In this document: one piece after another, positions 26,280 to 44,260 of the stretch | Layout: each line of letters begins with the position of its first letter | Numbering within the stretch: the first letter of the stretch is position 1 | DNA from: Halobaculum litoreum | GTDB taxonomy: Archaea > Halobacteriota > Halobacteria > Halobacteriales > Haloferacaceae | DNA: 64,000 nucleotides | Reading direction: 5' to 3' | Assembly (NCBI RefSeq): GCF_030127125.1 | Contig: NZ_CP126157.1 | Span: 124,001 to 188,000, forward strand | Position numbers and translations under genes: made by a program | Notes under the pieces: generated by a model | Told to the model about the DNA's origin: nothing | Seen by the model: the letters and a program-made list of their open reading frames with translations, nothing else | The model's database searches: none

Positions 26280-27335
26280 TTACTCGCGAACGAGTGCGAA
26301 GAGCGCACCGCTCGACGCGAAGACGAGGTCGTCGCCGGCGACGACGCTCCCGACGGTACGGTCGGTCTCGAACTCCCAGCGGAGACGCCCGTCGCGACCG
26401 AGCGCGTACACGCGGTTGTCGTTCGACCCGGCGTACACCGAGTCGTCGGCCAGCGCCGGTTCGTACACGGTGGTGTTCCCGTCGGTGAAGGTCCACCGCT
26501 CGGTGCCGTCCCGCTTGTCGACGGCGATCATCCGCCCGGCGTCCGTCCCGTTACAGCCCAGAAACACTCGCTCGTCGCCGACGACCGGTCGCGTCCCCCG
26601 CTTCACCGTGCCCGTGGTGTCGGCACGCCACCGAACGTTCCCGTCCCTCCGGTCCAGTGCGAGCAGTTCGCCCGTTCGGCCGGGATCGTCAGCTGTGGCG
26701 ACGTACACCGTGTCGTCCGCGACGGTCGGGCTGCGTGTCTCCGTCCCGGTGTGGTGTTGCCACACCTGCGCACCGTCCGTGTCGAACGCGGTGACGACGC
26801 CGTCGACACGGTCGGTGTGAACGACCGTCCCGCGTCCGACCGCGGGGCGTGTGAGCCGCGCTCCGATGGTCGGGGCCCGCCAGTCGACCTCGCCACTCCC
26901 GGGGTCGACAGCGATCAGGTCACGGCCGTTCGCGTACACCCGGTCGGGCCCGACAGCGACACCGCTTCGAAGCGACATCGACGTGATCCACTCGCGCTCG
27001 CCGTCCGCCCGGCTCAGTCCTCTGAGCCCGTCACACCCTGCGACGTAGACCAGGTCGTCTCCGATCCCGAGATCGCGTTGCAGACAGCCCCACTCGTCGA
27101 ACTCGTCTTCGTCCCACCCGACCCGCCACTGCGTCCGTCCGTCGGCGGGCGAGCGAGCGTCGAGCTGTCTGTTGCCCATCGCGTACAGGGTTTCGTCGGC
27201 GAGATGCGGGATCCCACCCCTCCGCCGTCGCCAACGGACCCGCTCGGACGACGAGCCGGGCCGTTCGAGACATCCGACCGTGGTACCTACGACCAGACCG
27301 GTCATCGACTGGAGGACGCGACGGCGAGAGACCAT
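26280..27335 (-). CDS. Tat lipoprotein with PQQ-like beta-propeller
   Basis: This 351-residue protein has a twin-arginine lipoprotein signal (SRRRVLQSMTGLVVGTTVGC), so it should be exported folded and anchored by lipid on the Cys at about position 22. The body consists of repeating blades typical of the BamB/PQQ-like family (VYVATADDPGRTGELLALDR, VYAGSNDNRVYALGRDG). Such propellers often serve as scaffolds, and no catalytic residues are apparent. It is one of three similar proteins in the window. Confidence 0.8.
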   Translation of the reverse strand: MVSRRRVLQSMTGLVVGTTVGCLERPGSSSERVRWRRRRGGIPHLADETLYAMGNRQLDARSPADGRTQWRVGWDEDEFDEWGCLQRDLGIGDDLVYVAGCDGLRGLSRADGEREWITSMSLRSGVAVGPDRVYANGRDLIAVDPGSGEVDWRAPTIGARLTRPAVGRGTVVHTDRVDGVVTAFDTDGAQVWQHHTGTETRSPTVADDTVYVATADDPGRTGELLALDRRDGNVRWRADTTGTVKRGTRPVVGDERVFLGCNGTDAGRMIAVDKRDGTERWTFTDGNTTVYEPALADDSVYAGSNDNRVYALGRDGRLRWEFETDRTVGSVVAGDDLVFASSGALFALVRE

Positions 27336-27366: not shown

Positions 27367-27447
27367 GAGTCGTTGGCTGTGTTGAAATCCTCAGCTAGTG
27401 ATAGGTTTCACCGGGCCTGCTGAATACAGGGCGCGAGTCGGTCATCG
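27367..27447 (+). repeat. IS-like terminal sequence A (left end) preceded by direct repeat GAGTCGTT
   Basis: GAGTCGTT (27367-27374) is followed by GGCTGTGTTGAAATCC (27375-27390). The sequence inward to about 27447 matches the end at 44190-44260 (reverse strand) through GTGATA, CTGCTG and CAGGGCGCGAGTCGG. The layout resembles an IS6-type end (GGCxCTGTTG start, 8-base duplications), but the family was not verified. Confidence 0.6.
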
Positions 27448-27550
27448 GCGGGTGGACACAGTTTCTACTCGGCAGATGTGACGATACCGATCATTTCCGA
27501 AAATGTCCGAGTAGATCAAAGCACCGGCAAAAATAATAATTTATTTGGGA

Positions 27551-27560
27551 TTTATTTATA
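27551..27560 (+). promoter_or_regulatory. TATA box
   Basis: TTTATTTATA lies 24 bases before the ATG at 27584, giving a leaderless transcript. Confidence 0.6.
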
Positions 27561-27583
27561 TCCTCAGAGACCCATAGTATCTC

Positions 27584-28801
27584 ATGAATCGACGAACGTA
27601 TCTGGGAGCATGCGCTGGGGCGGGTGTCGTGGGGCTAGCCGGCTGTCTCGACGCCGTGGGGAGTCGAGTGGCCCGTACTGAGGCCGCCCCCGCAATCGCC
27701 CAGTGGAGCGACGAGGACTGCAACGACGGCGACGTTTGCGTGCGACCACACATCGTCCGAGCGATCGACGAGGAAATCGACTTGGGCAATCCGATGCTTG
27801 GAACGGTCCAGATACGGGGCTGGCTCGGGGGAACGCAACTTCGAGCCCAGGACTACAATTCTTCGCGGAGCAACAAGCCGTCGAGGGCCCAAGACCCCGA
27901 CTCGGACGGCGACGGGGTGGACGACGGCGACGACGAGACGCGAGCTAACAACCACAACACCACCCGCAGCACCCGCGACAATCCGGTCAGAGGCGAGGGC
28001 GACGGCAGCGACGAGGCCATCGACATGGAGCAGGCGTTCGACTACCTCGACGATGACGACGATGGCGACGGGGTCGTCGTGGCCGAGACGTTTGTGCTTT
28101 CGGTGCCCGCTGTGGACATCCCGGGCGTCAAGGGCTCGTCGATCAACGGCGAGGACCTTGAGGAGGTGGAGAACGCTGTCAGCGAGGGCCTGGCGGGGGC
28201 ACCGACGACCGAGGAGACCGTCCTCCGGGGGCTGACGACGCCGACGCTCGTGCGCCGGTGCTGTAGAAACGACAAGGCGTCCCCGTACCTCTCGCTGAGC
28301 ACTCCGCAGGACGACGACACCCCGATGGCCGGGGCGTGGTCGCAGACGAGTCTCCGCGGCGAGACAAGCGCGCCCGACCAGTCAGAGCCTGTCGTCGGTC
28401 GGGCCGTCGCCACGCTGGACGGTGGCGTGAAGCTCCCGGTGCTGGTGTGGGCCCAGCGCCTCGTCCACGGGGGCGACACCCTGTTCGTCGCTGGCTGGGT
28501 CGTCGACGACGCGCGACTGTACACCAATGCGGCGACGGTGTTGACTGCCTCGGGTCGAACGGACGTCAGGGAGTACACCAGCGAGATGGGGCAGGTGCAC
28601 CCGAGCAGGGAAGGGGGGTTTATAGCCAGCCCCGACGACGGCTTCGACCCCGACGGGGCTGTACTCGAAGCGGCGATGGCCGCGCGTGGATCCGACGGTG
28701 GCGGCGTCGACCACGGCTGGGCGGGACTGTTCATCGTGCCGATGGACGCACCGCTGGTCCACGACCTGCGAATCATCCGCGAGGTCGGCAAAAAGAAGTG
28801 A
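27584..28801 (+). CDS. Tat lipoprotein with DxDxDG calcium-type repeat, function unknown
   Basis: This 405-residue protein begins MNRRTYLGACAGAGVVGLAG-C, a twin-arginine lipobox signal. Around residues 105-125 a DSDGDGVDDGDDET segment resembles thrombospondin type 3 calcium repeats, and another acidic run is LDDDDDGDGVVVA. Two adjacent cysteines (RRCCRN) and a conserved-looking C-terminal domain (LPVLVWAQRLVHGGDTLFVAGW) follow. No known enzyme family is recognised. It lies inside a stretch bounded by IS-like ends, which suggests transfer as cargo. Confidence 0.7.
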   Translation: MNRRTYLGACAGAGVVGLAGCLDAVGSRVARTEAAPAIAQWSDEDCNDGDVCVRPHIVRAIDEEIDLGNPMLGTVQIRGWLGGTQLRAQDYNSSRSNKPSRAQDPDSDGDGVDDGDDETRANNHNTTRSTRDNPVRGEGDGSDEAIDMEQAFDYLDDDDDGDGVVVAETFVLSVPAVDIPGVKGSSINGEDLEEVENAVSEGLAGAPTTEETVLRGLTTPTLVRRCCRNDKASPYLSLSTPQDDDTPMAGAWSQTSLRGETSAPDQSEPVVGRAVATLDGGVKLPVLVWAQRLVHGGDTLFVAGWVVDDARLYTNAATVLTASGRTDVREYTSEMGQVHPSREGGFIASPDDGFDPDGAVLEAAMAARGSDGGGVDHGWAGLFIVPMDAPLVHDLRIIREVGKKK

Positions 28802-29141
28802 GCCGCGGCTCGTAGCAATCGATTGCGGGGAGAACAACGGGGAGACCCCATGATTGGGAGCGAAACGGTGAGTCGAATTCGAACTCCAGTCTCCGCAACG
28901 CCACACAATACCAGCTGGAACAGCCCTCGAGACAGGAATTCAACCAGCAACTGGTGCTGAACGTATCCTCTATATCTTGCACGGCACGTCTGACAGGGGC
29001 GGGTGAGGTTTCACCGACCGTGCTGCACAGAGAGCGCGAGGCACAGTCAGAGACACAGACGTGGTCGGCAGTGTACCAACGGAGACGGTCGCTTCACAAC
29101 GTACCGTACGTTTTTATGATATATCCTGGCGTGTCAGTAAC
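28802..29141. other. Intergenic, promoter of the DUF2306-like gene
   Basis: No gene is seen. At 29111-29120 the sequence TTTTTATGAT lies about 27 bases before the next ATG and is the likely TATA box. Confidence 0.5.
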
Positions 29142-29828
29142 ATGTACTCCCTCGAAGACGCTACCCTCGCCGTTCACGTCCTCTTTGGATTCGTCGCACT
29201 CGGTGCCGGTGCTGGTGCACTCCTCACGGAGAAAGGTCGTCGCCGGCATCGGCGCCTCGGTCGGACGTACGTGTACGCGATGGCCGCCGTCTCGGTCACG
29301 GCACTCGGACTGCTGGCGCTCGACCAGACGCTCCTTCGAGTGTTTCTCGGCTTCGTCGCCGTGTTCAGTTTCTACTTCGCGTTCTCCGGCTATCGAGTTC
29401 TCTCCCGGAAACGCACGATCGACACCCCCGGTACTGTCGACTGGGTGGCCACTGGACTCTTCGGTGCCTCCGGCGTCGGCCTCCTCGCTATGGGCGGGTG
29501 GTTCCTCAGTAACGGGAACCAGTTCGGAGTCGTTATGCTCGTCTTCGGCGGCATCGCGCTCATCACCTCCGTGGGTGACGTCCGGCAGTTCCGCGCCACC
29601 GACCTCGAACCTCGCACGTGGTTCTTCGAGCACATCCAACGTATGGGTGGGGCGTACATCGCGACCATCACCGCGTTCGTCACAACGAACGTGCGGGACG
29701 TCTCACTCGTCCCCCTGCCGGTGATATGGTTGCTCCCCGCTGCCGTCGGAGGCGTCGCCATCTGGTACGTCGTCCGGCAGTACAGGGCAAAGTTCGACGT
29801 TGGCACCAACCCGCAGCCAACGGACTGA
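29142..29828 (+). CDS. DUF2306-like integral membrane protein
   Basis: This 228-residue protein has about six to seven membrane helices. It begins MYSLEDATLAVHVLFGFVAL and has a HRRLGRTYVYAMA loop typical of DUF2306-type membrane proteins. The start is fixed by the TATA box at 29111-29120. Function is unknown for the family. It lies inside the IS-bounded stretch. Confidence 0.7.
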   Translation: MYSLEDATLAVHVLFGFVALGAGAGALLTEKGRRRHRRLGRTYVYAMAAVSVTALGLLALDQTLLRVFLGFVAVFSFYFAFSGYRVLSRKRTIDTPGTVDWVATGLFGASGVGLLAMGGWFLSNGNQFGVVMLVFGGIALITSVGDVRQFRATDLEPRTWFFEHIQRMGGAYIATITAFVTTNVRDVSLVPLPVIWLLPAAVGGVAIWYVVRQYRAKFDVGTNPQPTD

Positions 29829-30501
29829 CACGGTACCGCGATTCCAGGGTCGAGAGCCACAGATCAGTCGCCATCGAGCCCGGGTCACAGACGAAGAGGT
29901 CACCCTGAATAGCGGTAGTCCTACACATCCACGTGGCCTCGGCTCAATGACCTGTATACATACACTGAGGGTGACGTTGTCGCCTTCAACCCCCGAGTTG
30001 AGACTCGACCGCCTGCTGCATACACCCTATATATTCAGCACGCGACTTCTGTCAAGGTCAGAGGATTTCAACAGAGCCGAGTCGTTGGCTGTGTTGAAAT
30101 CCTTGGTCGGCTGAAGACAGGCACATACGCCTGAATCGCTTGGATGTGATATTTAAATACTGACTACTACGAATCTTCGAATTGAGCCGAAAATGGCTTT
30201 GTGAACCTGCCCTACCAATGCTGTCGTCGAACCAATGTGTCAGCTCACCGCTTCTGGGGTGCGTCTGGGGCCCTGGTCTCGGCGAACATAGAACTGAGTC
30301 CTCTGGCGTTGACGAACTACTAACTGGTATAGACTATGATGGGATCGTCAATGAAATGACGGTTGTTGATTAAGATAGACTATGAGAATCAACGGATGTC
30401 GGTACCTCATCCAAGTATTAATTTCGGAATGATAGTAATAACGCTTGTTTGCGGATTGAGAGTCTCTCCCGCGAAGCTATGGCTCGGAGATGGAACGTAT
30501 T
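29829..30501. other. Intergenic with IS-like end junction
   Basis: No gene is seen. The main content is the junction of two IS-like ends at 30063-30102. Confidence 0.5.
30063..30102. repeat. IS-like end junction B/E: right end, 8-base repeat, left end
   Basis: GGATTTCAACAGAGCC (30063-30078), then GAGTCGTT (30079-30086), then GGCTGTGTTGAAATCC (30087-30102). The first is the inverted match of the left end at 27375. The 8-mer equals the one at 27367. This is a right end and a new left end sharing one direct repeat. Confidence 0.65.
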
Positions 30502-30945
30502 CTATCCGCTCTGTGAACGCCGCTGCATCAGAGCGCGAGAAAGTTCAGATACCATGGCTGCGATTGCCCCAATGATGATCGGGACTCCCAACCAATCGTA
30601 AAAAGTCAGCAACTGGGTAATACTATCCGACTGCAAATACAAGATGTATAATATTTGTACCAACATAATCATAAACGCTCCAAACGGGTACCTCAGGATT
30701 CTGATCACGATGTTGTCACCAAGATCCAGAATATGTGATAGAGAATGAATAAATAGAACTCCAGCGACGCACGCAATAACACTAACAAACAACCCTGCCA
30801 ATGCCGTTTCTCCATCTACTCCTGGATTCCGATTTACTGGATGAAAATTGCTCTTCGTCGCCCTCGTAACCCATATGAATAGTAAGACTGCTAACAGAGC
30901 GGAAACAATCGTCCGAAAGAATGGAATATCTTTTGACAATTTCAT
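30502..30945 (-). CDS. Hypothetical four-helix membrane protein
   Basis: This 147-residue protein begins MKLSKDIPFFRTIVSALLAVL. Four hydrophobic segments are visible (VSALLAVLLFIWV, LAGLFVSVIACVAGVLFI, FGAFMIMLVQILYILYL, WLGVPIIIGAIAAMV). Base composition is richer in A+T than neighbouring genes, a sign of transfer. It follows the 84-residue gene on the same strand by 43 bases, likely one operon. Confidence 0.6.
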   Translation of the reverse strand: MKLSKDIPFFRTIVSALLAVLLFIWVTRATKSNFHPVNRNPGVDGETALAGLFVSVIACVAGVLFIHSLSHILDLGDNIVIRILRYPFGAFMIMLVQILYILYLQSDSITQLLTFYDWLGVPIIIGAIAAMVSELSRALMQRRSQSG

Positions 30946-30988
30946 GTTTAAATGTGTAGGATTTGAGTCGTGGTATACTTCCGAACTC

Positions 30989-31243
30989 TTACTCTCCGGT
31001 GAACTTGTGTGCAGTTAATTCTCCATGATTCCTGACGCGGACTTGCGGTGTCACCTCGAATTGATCTCCACCAGGCGATGTGACAGTCTTCGATTTCAGA
31101 CCAACCGTGAGTTCTTCATCCTGTTGGACTCTGTATTCCTCTCCTCGGGCCGTTATGTCAATAGTATCATCAGTGCTCTGTGCTACCTGAATGGAAGGAA
31201 TGGGCACAGGCGATTCACTTGGCAGGAATTTATTAGGACTCAT
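30989..31243 (-). CDS. Small hypothetical protein
   Basis: This 84-residue protein begins MSPNKFLPSESPVPIPSIQ. It is strand-rich (DTIDITARGEEYRVQQDEEL, VRVRNHGELTAH). GGTGAG lies just before the ATG and could serve as ribosome-binding site. A longer frame continuing to 31483 runs antisense to the transposase fragment and is not credible. No family is recognised. It lies upstream of the four-helix membrane gene. Confidence 0.5.
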   Translation of the reverse strand: MSPNKFLPSESPVPIPSIQVAQSTDDTIDITARGEEYRVQQDEELTVGLKSKTVTSPGGDQFEVTPQVRVRNHGELTAHKFTGE

Positions 31244-31264
31244 CTCACCTGTGGCGATGGGAAG

Positions 31265-31810
31265 ATCTGAAACTACGACCTGTTCGCCATCGACGAGGAC
31301 GCCGATGAGTTCGACGAAGCCACCCACCGACAGGAGTTGGTAGACGAGTTCGCCGATATCGTTGAGGCGGACGACACCGGTGGGTCGCCGTTCGGCGACC
31401 TCGTGGACGATCTGAGAGACGAGGAAGAAATCCCAAACGACACCGAGGCGGCGCAGGCGTACGCACTCTTTGAAACGAACCACCCGTCATTCCAGCCAAG
31501 TGAGGCCGAAACTGGCGAGGAGTTACTCGATGGCGTTCAGACTATCGTTCGGCGGTATAAGCGGCGTTGGGGCATCGAGAACGGCTACAAGAAGCTGAAG
31601 AAGTTCCGTGTCCGGACGACCTCGAAGGACCACGGCTACCGCTTCTTCAACTTCGCGTTCGCGTGTGTCTTGTACAACGTCTGGCGACTCGTGGACCTGC
31701 TTGTGAAGCTCGCCGTCGACGGTGAGAACGCTGAGTACGCGCCGCGAATAGACGCAAACCAGTTCCTCACGGTGGCGAAGAAGTTCTATGGGCTCGACCC
31801 GCCCGACTGA
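31265..31810 (+). pseudogene. ISH3-family transposase fragment (C-terminal part)
   Basis: The translated frame YDLFAIDEDADEFDEATHRQ to GLDPPD contains the hallmark YKRRWGIENGYKKLKKF and RFFNFAFACVLYNVWRLVD of ISH3-type (IS4-like DDE) transposases. The frame closes with TGA just before YDLFAID, so the N-terminal two thirds are missing. It is a relic and cannot transpose itself. Confidence 0.75.
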
Positions 31811-32003
31811 CGGTTGATTCCCCTCTGAGATAGCTGAACCACGAGCGGTAGCACTGTCGCGCTCGGTCATTTCTCCAAATTAGACTTCGAGTGAACGACA
31901 TTTTGACGTAGTGACCACGTTTCGGTCGGGACAATCTGGTTGTGTCCACGCCGATCACGTTGTCGTCCGACCGATTCAGAAGCCATCTGCCTGCCTTCTA
32001 GGT

Positions 32004-32045
32004 CGGTGATCGTTCGTTGAGGCCGTGCTGAATACAAGGGGTTCA
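32004..32045 (+). repeat. Inner part of an IS-like left end, terminal 16-mer lost
   Basis: GGTGATCG followed by GTGCTGAATACAAGGGG resembles the inner part of end A (AGTGATAGG, CTGCTGAATACAGGG at 27400-27430). The GGCTGTG terminus is absent. Confidence 0.35.
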
Positions 32046-32070
32046 CGAACCGCTCAGTACAGGTGACCGT

Positions 32071-32277
32071 TCAGAGGAATCCTGTTACGCCAATGAATAC
32101 AAATAGTACACCCAATCCGCGATAAAGCCAGACAGGGGTGTTGGACTCTTCCGTTCGGTCGGATGATGAACGTCGAAGGAACTCAAATCCAAACGTGTGG
32201 GTTCTCTTCGGAAGGATAAGATAGGCGAGACCAAGGACTACAGCTATGACGTATCCGACTTGCCGGAGAGTGCTCAT
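32071..32277 (-). CDS. Small two-helix membrane protein
   Basis: This 68-residue protein begins MSTLRQVGYVIAVVLGLAYL. Two helices (VGYVIAVVLGLAYLILP and LGVLFVFIGVTGFL) flank a charged loop (FLRRSSSDRTEES). The sequence pattern PVWLYRGLGVLFVFIG is typical of small haloarchaeal membrane proteins. Its function is unknown. It lies between a partial and a complete IS-like end. Confidence 0.6.
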   Translation of the reverse strand: MSTLRQVGYVIAVVLGLAYLILPKRTHTFGFEFLRRSSSDRTEESNTPVWLYRGLGVLFVFIGVTGFL

Positions 32278-32789
32278 ACGTACTTAGCAACGAATGGTCG
32301 TATATGTTTAATGGGCAGCTCTAATCGACCGGCTGTTTCAGGTGATGATCTGTCTGAATAGTAGGATTTCAACAGAGCCGGGTCGTTCCAACGACCCCGA
32401 CCGGGTGTCGGTCGAAACGACGGTTCGATCGGGTTCTCTCCCCGCGGTTCGACCGTTTTTCGGAGGACTTCGACCGTCACCCGTGTACACTCACTCGGAT
32501 TACCGTTCGAGTTCGTTTTCGGTGTAAAGCGTAGCTTGCTGTCTGAGCTTGAAGCTAATAACAGGACATAGGGGGGTATTCATGTACCACGTCGGCGATG
32601 GTCGCTCTACTCGGGGCGGCGTGACTGGCGCAGGAGTTCGGTGAGGGACCCGCCGACGATGAGTCTCCAGCCGGTCCTCAAACGCTTCTCGGACGGTACC
32701 CAGTCGATCGGCGATGCCAGCGCAGGTCGGATTCCACTTTCACTCCACTACCCGACCGGTTAACACCGTCACCCCCATCGGTGAGAGCC
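32278..32789. other. Intergenic with IS-like right end C
   Basis: No gene is seen. It holds the right end C and a GGTTAAC box at about 32757-32763 that could serve the next gene. Confidence 0.45.
32364..32387 (+). repeat. IS-like right end C with following GGGTCGTT
   Basis: GGATTTCAACAGAGCC (32364-32379) is identical to the right end at 30063, and the next eight bases GGGTCGTT differ by one from the GAGTCGTT beside the other ends. Confidence 0.6.
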
Positions 32790-43518: not shown

Positions 43519-43622
43519 GGCGTCGACACGACCGAACCGCCTCGGCGTTGTGTCGATGCGTGCTGCGAGAGTTCACCGACTGGTGCCCGTCCAACGTGTC
43601 ACCTGAGGCGAGTGAGCATCCA

Positions 43623-43629
43623 TTTTATG
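43623..43629 (+). promoter_or_regulatory. TATA box of the UspA gene
   Basis: TTTTATG lies about 27 bases upstream of the ATG at 43654. Confidence 0.45.
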
Positions 43630-43653
43630 CACGTCCTCACCGTAGTCTTGAGA

Positions 43654-44073
43654 ATGCTATCAAGGCTTCTGGTCCCGATGGACGACTCGGAGATGGCCCA
43701 GCAAGCGCTCAAGTACGCTCTCGAGAACCATCCCGAGGCGGAGATCACGGTCTTGCATGTCGAGGGCGGACCGTCCCTGATGGGGGGAGCAGCCACGGCA
43801 CTCGCTCTCGAAGAGGACCCGGAAGCGGCCGCCGAAGAGCACTCGAAGGCGGTATTCGAGAACGCCCGGGAACTCGCCGCCGAGTACGATGTCGACATTA
43901 CCACCGAAGTTCAGATGGGTCATCCGGCCCGGGCGATCCTGAACAGGGCCGACGACTTCGATGCAATCGTACTCGGCAGCCACAGCGGTTCGTTAGTCGA
44001 TCGGCTAATCGTCGGGAACGTCGCCCAGAAGGTGGTCCGACAGTCACCCATTCCGGTCGTCGTCGCCCGGTGA
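43654..44073 (+). CDS. UspA-family universal stress protein
   Basis: This 139-residue protein is a typical single UspA domain: MLSRLLVPMDDSEMAQQAL at the start and ADDFDAIVLGSHSGSLVDRL to VVRQSPIPVVVAR at the end. The nucleotide loop GSHSGS is slightly atypical for the usual G-2x-G-9x-G motif. The TATA box at 43623-43629 fixes the start. Family members aid stress survival by unknown means. Confidence 0.85.
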   Translation: MLSRLLVPMDDSEMAQQALKYALENHPEAEITVLHVEGGPSLMGGAATALALEEDPEAAAEEHSKAVFENARELAAEYDVDITTEVQMGHPARAILNRADDFDAIVLGSHSGSLVDRLIVGNVAQKVVRQSPIPVVVAR

Positions 44074-44189: not shown

Positions 44190-44260
44190 GATGGCCGACT
44201 CGCGCCCTGTGGCAGCAGAACGCTGAGAACATATCACCGGTTGAGGATTTCAACAGAGCC
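44190..44260 (-). repeat. IS-like end D (solo, inverse orientation)
   Basis: GGATTTCAACAGAGCC (44245-44260) plus inward sequence matches end A (27375-27447) on the reverse strand over about 70 bases, including CAGGGCGCGAGTCGG. No partner end or transposase is seen nearby. Confidence 0.55.

Follow-up and report, generated by a model that had tools for sequence, protein, structure and literature searches.

How are genes carried into a haloarchaeal replicon by units that have the ends of an insertion sequence (IS) and no transposase of their own, and why should two such units stand side by side? The question is raised by a stretch of 64,000 nucleotides from Halobaculum litoreum (NZ_CP126157.1, 124,001-188,000), referred to below as the window, which lies in contig C2, a secondary replicon; coordinates given without the name of a contig or locus are positions in this window. 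Two tandem units, U1 and U2, are found there between inverted ends and 8-bp direct repeats, and a 67-bp junction, J, separates the two genes of U1 (Table 1). With a probability of about three in four, we take U1 and U2 to be transposase-less cargo units of the ISHla2 type that are moved in trans, and U1 to be an array of cassettes joined by J. An ISHla2-type transposase of the IS5 family would act on both units, each insertion duplicating 8 bp of the target, and U1 would hold two single-gene cassettes linked by J. The recurrence of this junction in longer chains suggests a gene-shuffling system that is without description in the open literature we searched.

Ends and direct repeats of the two units

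The 16-base ends were read at 27375-27390 (+), 30063-30078 (-), 30087-30102 (+) and 32364-32379 (-), and U1 has an inverted match of 18 bp (94%), U2 one of 17 bp. Left ends start with GGCTGTG and right ends with GGCTCTG, the two differing in a single base. When up to three mismatches are permitted, the end pattern occurs six times in the window against an expectation of 0.23, and none of 100 shuffled sequences gave six matches. Direct reading and this shuffle control confirm the initial annotation in its description of two tandem units with such ends and repeats. Further inward, two types of ends are distinguished by their subterminal motifs: in type A the arm starts at base 43 on one side and at base 38 on the other, and type C has a pair at bases 41 and 40. 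U1 is of type A, with arm 43 (CTGCTGAATACAG) on the left and arm 38 on the right, and the right end of U2 is of type C (CL40). Note that a fifth, solo end of the same family is located at 44245-44260, immediately downstream of the gene (43612-44073) for a universal stress protein, with no partner end found.

Table 1. Features of U1, U2 and their surroundings (window positions)
Feature	Position	Strand	Remarks
Intact PQQ-type beta-propeller gene	26280..27335	-	natural empty site for the Halobaculum limi sibling unit
8-bp direct repeat GAGTCGTT, left of U1	27367..27374	.	letters read directly
U1, whole unit	27375-30078		bounded by inverted ends
U1 left terminal inverted repeat, 18 bp	27375..27392	+	pattern match and inverted-repeat alignment
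U1 left subterminal arm CTGCTGAATACAG	27417..27429	+	position 43 of the end (type A43)
U1 cassette 1 gene	27584..28801	+	405-aa lipoprotein-like protein, no Pfam family
Dyad site 1, left edge of J	28955..28981	.	placed from consensus
Junction J, 67 bp	28968..29034	+	between both U1 genes
Dyad site 2, right edge of J	29021..29047	.	placed from consensus
U1 cassette 2 gene	29142..29828	+	DUF2306 membrane protein, 228 aa
U1 right subterminal arm	30029..30041	-	position 38 of the end (type A38)
U1 right terminal inverted repeat	30061..30078	-	
8-bp repeat GAGTCGTT	30079..30086	.	common to U1 and U2
U2, whole unit	30087-32379		bounded by inverted ends
U2 left terminal inverted repeat	30087..30103	+	
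U2 open reading frame (ORF), 147 aa	30502..30945	-	membrane-like protein, Pfam match sub-threshold only
U2 transposase fragment	31337..31810	+	C-terminal part of an unrelated transposase (ISH3/ISH7-like)
U2 ORF, 68 aa	32071..32277	-	no family
U2 right subterminal motif	32326..32340	-	end type CL40
U2 right terminal inverted repeat	32363..32379	-	
8-bp repeat GGGTCGTT, right of U2	32380..32387	.	differs from GAGTCGTT by one base

A junction that recurs in gene arrays

The junction of U1 resembles repeated stretches in plasmids of Haloarcula marina, and in its make-up it resembles an A38 end fused to an A43 end, both without their terminal repeats. A search for divergent pairs of arms returned a spacing of 39 in 11 of 13 distinct cases, five of these 11 coming from two Haloarcula marina strains. 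The exact J pattern, in which the gap was permitted a range of 31 values, was found at 14 places in 7 of the 293 genomes of the order, with a total length of 67 in 12 of the 14, and the reversed control gave no match. From 15 seeds we built a model of J that yielded 71 matches in the sampled loci. Note that the loci used for counts of end pairs, of model matches and of J pairs were chosen for having ends or J, that several of them come from the same genomes, and that SHRA6 enters the counts twice, as G011 and under its own name.

As evidenced by the array maps, J alternates with mostly one or two genes. Seven copies each are present in L214 and L219, eight in L208 and L209 taken together, and five in L210 and L215. 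Counting only matches of at least 28 bits and excluding L190 as the same DNA as L218, we find that 31 of 32 pairs of adjacent copies share a strand and that the median spacing is 805 bp. The array of Haladaptatus YSMS36 and DYSN1 has four copies of J between five small genes, all enclosed by a left and a right end, and in three cases, U1, L049 (Halobaculum roseum) and L179, J lies within a repeat-bounded unit. We propose that such arrays are bounded by the same IS5-type ends as U1 and would be carried by them. An Rfam search for J in three array loci returned nothing. In two Haladaptatus strains (L227/L228, 8493-8557), the only differences within one J are some ten bases in a single arm, which looks as though it had been exchanged.

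The initial annotation had read the region as transposon-like cargo moved by ends supplied from elsewhere. Ends, repeats and family support that reading, but it missed J and the two-cassette array in U1, and movement in trans would follow from the build of the units.

Proposed cassette exchange at the edges of J

In the consensus of 35 extended copies of J, dyads are centred on both edges, with a complementarity of 52% and 42% compared to a mean of 25% for all centres; a third centre, inside J, scores 44%. The dyad at the left edge reads approximately TGCTGAATACA-NCCTC-TGTATNNNGCA. Cassettes may exchange at these edge dyads, most likely through a site-specific recombinase. A candidate is the tyrosine integrase (PF00589) encoded at 13988-15138 of L219, just outside the end of an array with seven copies of J; its position alone is no link to the arrays.

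One cassette-level difference between strains was observed. At one array, Haloarcula marina YSSS71 and DT1 have 98-99% identity, with YSSS71 carrying an additional 660 bp that comprises two cassettes, and the insertion falls within CTCTATAT of the dyad that adjoins the right terminal repeat. DT1 has the same two cassettes in another of its arrays, where they stand apart and in reversed order, with four out of four breakpoints at the edges of J. A further cassette, found between copies of J in Haloprofundus salinisoli (L208), has relatives of 83% identity in three other plasmids examined. The relative in L223 (Halostagnicola larsenii) forms a single unit with two ends and perfect repeats GGATCAAC, and no complete end pair or J was found around those in L224 and L225.

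A more far-reaching proposal, which we advance tentatively and hold to fall just short of being probable, is that haloarchaea possess a cassette system of their own, comprising the 67-bp junction, two dyads of the size of dif, a tyrosine-type recombinase and export by IS5 ends, with U1 as a minimal array. One or several cassettes at a time would be inserted at the ends of arrays, and the ISHla2-type ends bounding these would export them between replicons and species. If this is true, a class of archaea has a modular means to gather and pass on single genes, among them transporters, stress proteins, acetyltransferases and toxin-antitoxin pairs. The system would be comparable with integrons while using a transposon shell and sites of another kind. 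Much of the turnover of genes on haloarchaeal plasmids could be due to it, and it would supply sites and strain pairs that are directly testable.

Alternatively, J might be a scar. Where units stand in tandem, with a right end, 8 bp and a left end in succession, the long inverted repeat could be removed by hairpin cleavage or replication slippage; what is left, now fused, would then be copied along with the array without any cassette recombinase. The likeness of J to A38 and A43 ends lacking their terminal repeats is in line with this, as is the occurrence of tandem junctions with a gap of 8 bp. Independent deletions, however, are not expected to result in a length of 67 in 12 of 14 exact matches across several families, nor in conserved inner bases such as CTGACAG, and the gain of two whole cassettes at a single dyad in YSSS71 also argues against an origin that we hold to be unlikely.

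Homologous recombination between copies of J and between end repeats would equally shuffle cassettes, with no need for a site-specific enzyme. Copies of J are nearly identical within Haloarcula marina, and exchange between repeats can also leave breakpoints at repeat edges. Nevertheless, the empty site in DT1 has no J, only 8 identical (about 23 similar) bases are found at the point of insertion, and the exchanged segments show no swapping of parts of the J centre. We consider this explanation to have the same low standing as the scar.

Family of the ends and its transposase

Judged by sequence, the ends of U1 and U2 belong to an IS5-type (ISHla2-type) family. With one mismatch allowed, the 18-bp end is present in 92 of the 109 genomes of the taxonomic family, the reversed control pattern giving two matches overall, and a longer end pattern is present in 10 of the 11 genomes of the genus. 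Across 84,980 species, each represented by one genome, the long A43 end pattern was found in 52 stretches, all with haloarchaeal record titles; in a slightly looser form it had no match in viral contigs. Where elements with these ends have a transposase, it measures 273 aa and belongs to the IS5 family (NF033579). In L038 and L042, the same ends occur together with this transposase (NF033579, 212-214 bits, cut-off 140), cargo and perfect 8-bp repeats, and copies of 1193 bp in Halorubrum lacusprofundi (pHLAC01), annotated as ISHla2 family, are 82% identical to the L042 protein. A 2011-bp unit of Halovenus aranensis (L179) combines perfect repeats ACTACTTA, an A43 left end, one J and the IS5 transposase, and thereby ties the same enzyme family to the end type of U1.

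Units of this build without a transposase are common. The sampled loci contain 248 ends and 158 inward-facing pairs at a distance of 60-8000 bp, and 29 of these pairs, including the span of U1 plus U2 and one duplicate due to assembly overlap, are flanked by matching 8-bp repeats (at most one mismatch) where 0.06 are expected. In a second sample, part of which is a genome already in the first and which contains some nested pairs, the corresponding figures are 18 of 72 and 0.03. When 28 units were searched by tblastn with a related IS5 transposase, 3 gave a match and 25, U1 and U2 among them, gave none at E 1e-3. The lack of a matching transposase in U1 and U2, as put forward in the initial annotation, and the existence of further cargo units, for which it proposed a search, are thus borne out.

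The same 25 units bear on whether U1 and U2 began as cargo-carrying IS5 elements and, once inserted, decayed through deletion of the transposase. Elements with both cargo and transposase do exist (L038, L042 and L179), but units without a match retain intact ends and usually perfect repeats, and we regard decay as improbable. That an IS6-type element formed U1 and U2 as compound units, our first guess from the end motif GGCTCTGTT and the 8-bp duplication, both IS6-like, was dropped as extremely improbable because the tested transposases with these ends match IS5 models, while relatives in 217 plasmid records are annotated mostly as IS5, with one match to IS6.

Empty sites and the tandem arrangement

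The gene next to U1 on its left has a homologue in Halobaculum limi (L036) that is split by a unit of 2444 bp with repeats TCTTAGGC. When the flanks of this unit are joined and one repeat is removed, they align without gaps over 180 bp to the intact gene in the window. Of the sequence evidence, this empty site speaks most directly for precise insertion by the family of ends that bounds U1 and U2.

The two units themselves fit a pair of insertions into one 8-bp target, and their tandem order would result from the second unit having entered one of the two target copies made by the first. Since U1 is flanked by identical copies of GAGTCGTT and GGGTCGTT lies to the right of U2, U2 was probably inserted first and U1 second, into the left copy, an order that hinges on one base. 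The arrangement seems to recur, as in 3 of 7 close pairs of a right and a left end in the sampled loci the gap is exactly 8. The exact pattern of the tandem junction is found in the host genome only among the 293 genomes, and with three mismatches in two more cases in the sampled loci. The 31 distinct perfect 8-mers are AT-rich (37.5% GC) and have neither a fixed base nor a palindrome, so that a strict target does not explain the double use of one 8-mer; a preference for sites abutting an existing end would account for it.

Several findings weigh against our reading of the locus. With respect to the units, the left end of U2 is divergent and matches none of the subterminal types, although this agrees with U2 being the older unit. 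An empty site for U1 and U2, which the initial annotation had proposed to look for in relatives, was not found when the left flank was searched in 60 genomes and the right flank in plasmids; one was found for the Halobaculum limi sibling, in the window gene. The best match to the left flank is in Halobaculum limi, where the gene is itself interrupted, and the left neighbours of the nearest right flank (71%), found on a plasmid of Halobaculum marinum, are different ones. Likewise, the full IS anticipated from these ends exists in relatives (the 1193-bp ISHla2-type copies, L042 and L038), but the search of the host genome, an assembly that is 85.9% complete, for the IS5 transposase gave no match; four DDE_Tnp_1 matches are present there, none of them recovered by the IS5 protein search. 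L152, L163 and L184 pair an A43 end with the IS5 transposase and lack matching 8-bp repeats, as does the 1193-bp ISHla2 copy examined (5 mismatches).

With respect to the cassettes, insertion at the strain level is known from one pair of strains, and Haladaptatus YSMS36 and DYSN1 share their array with no difference in cassettes. A cassette common to two arrays of Haloprofundus salinisoli (L208 and L209 versus L210) breaks at J on its right side and has no site on the left, relatives of two further cassettes (L221, L222, L226) lack a surrounding J or end pair, and one pair of adjacent J copies lies on opposite strands.

Comparison with known systems

Mobile insertion cassettes (MICs) are transposase-less derivatives of insertion sequences with passenger genes. 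U1 and U2 are alike in having IS-type ends, direct repeats of fixed length and passenger genes while lacking a transposase, and their target duplication has the length expected of the helper, 8 bp, as in the transposase-bearing L038, L042 and L179. They have the testable features of MICs, and their anatomy points to movement in trans. In contrast to MICs, they are haloarchaeal, with ISHla2-type IS5 ends that are asymmetric (arms 43 and 38), many different cargos and an internal J. The term itself is used in PMC3129680. With ISHla2 and IS5 elements (NF033579), the units have the terminal repeat in common, and the transposase occurs in units of the same build; U1 and U2, however, lack it, and the 1193-bp ISHla2 copies lack the A43 and A38 arms of U1.

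By analogy, J arrays look like integron cassettes or dif modules in their working. The core motif of the integron attC site is GTTRRRY/RYYYAAC. Like integron arrays, J arrays consist of single genes between direct repeats of one element resembling a recombination site (a single J in U1), and site-specific insertion of cassettes was seen once. They differ in being bounded by IS5-type ends, and no IntI was seen linked to them in a scan that covered L219 and returned the tyrosine integrase named above. As visual inspection of the consensus from 35 J copies showed no integron core, J as an attC site was left unsupported. Cassette arrays and clusters of attC sites lacking integron-integrases (CALINs), including archaeal integrons, serve as the comparison here (PMC9668308), and terms for halobacteria or haloarchaea are absent from the text of that article.

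The genes in J arrays also appear to be flanked by dyads of about the size of dif, with arms of 11 nt and a spacer of 5-7 nt. According to PMC8371274, dif has 11-nt arms and a 6-nt spacer; the modules compared here are the dif/pdif (Xer) modules (PMC7399989). With up to three mismatches, the J arm sequence has no match in the main contig C1 of the host, whose assembly is incomplete, and J as a chromosomal dif likewise found no support in this search. Miniature inverted-repeat transposable elements (MITEs) of haloarchaea, as described in PMC3119063, are of small size and for the most part lack coding capacity, although an ORF is present in one of about 520 bp. Similar to our units, they are moved by the transposase of another element, with which they have mainly the terminal repeats in common, whereas U1 and U2 measure 2.3-2.7 kb and carry genes. 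In the openly licensed literature that was searched, we found no description of the ends of U1 and U2 or of J.

Cargo genes and further observations

The lipoprotein-like protein of U1 is weakly related, with 31% identity over 180 aa, to a lipoprotein of the L124 unit, which also carries a universal-stress-like ORF. Weak relatives are present in 4 of the 11 genomes of the genus, its own included, and a search of plasmids gave no match. For the DUF2306 gene, the nearest plasmid relatives sit in a gene neighbourhood common to Halobaculum limi and Halobaculum marinum. The transposase in U2, previously labelled a truncated ISH3 transposase, is indeed a fragment and is not the mover of U2; it covers positions 245-297 of 298 in the NCBIfam ISH3 model at 52 bits, below the cut-off of 225, and its DNA resembles plasmid genes annotated as 'transposase' or as ISH7A family.

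Ten proteins of other loci were scanned, nine of them cargo and one the L219 integrase, which is not. The cargo comprises a formate/nitrite transporter, a TrkA-C protein, a BrkB-like membrane protein, a luciferase-like oxidoreductase, an alpha/beta hydrolase, an acetyltransferase, a HicA toxin, an FMN dehydrogenase and one protein without family.

Contig C2 probably represents a circle of about 218.5 kb that was assembled with an overlap, as its start (1-46882) is repeated at 218480-265357 with 99.75% identity over 46.9 kb. A 701-bp unit with the same ends, at first read as a full IS, holds a 162-aa ORF without Pfam family, and its two genomic copies proved to be one, counted twice through this terminal overlap.

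Contig C1 contains three copies of a single end whose flanks are identical (33167, 2745502 and 2774406), and two ends forming a pair of 125 bp are present in several genomes of the genus (G001, G002, G004). This is probably a small MITE; an Rfam search of L053 gave no match. A repeat-bounded unit with type-C ends in L129 (7115-10553) carries a different, unclassified transposase-like ORF and an FMN-dehydrogenase-like gene. Small gene pairs are found in two type-C units from different genera, L125 (7323-8011) and G086:C2 (156985-157743); one gene of L125 matches the HicA toxin, and the G086 pair is similar by eye.

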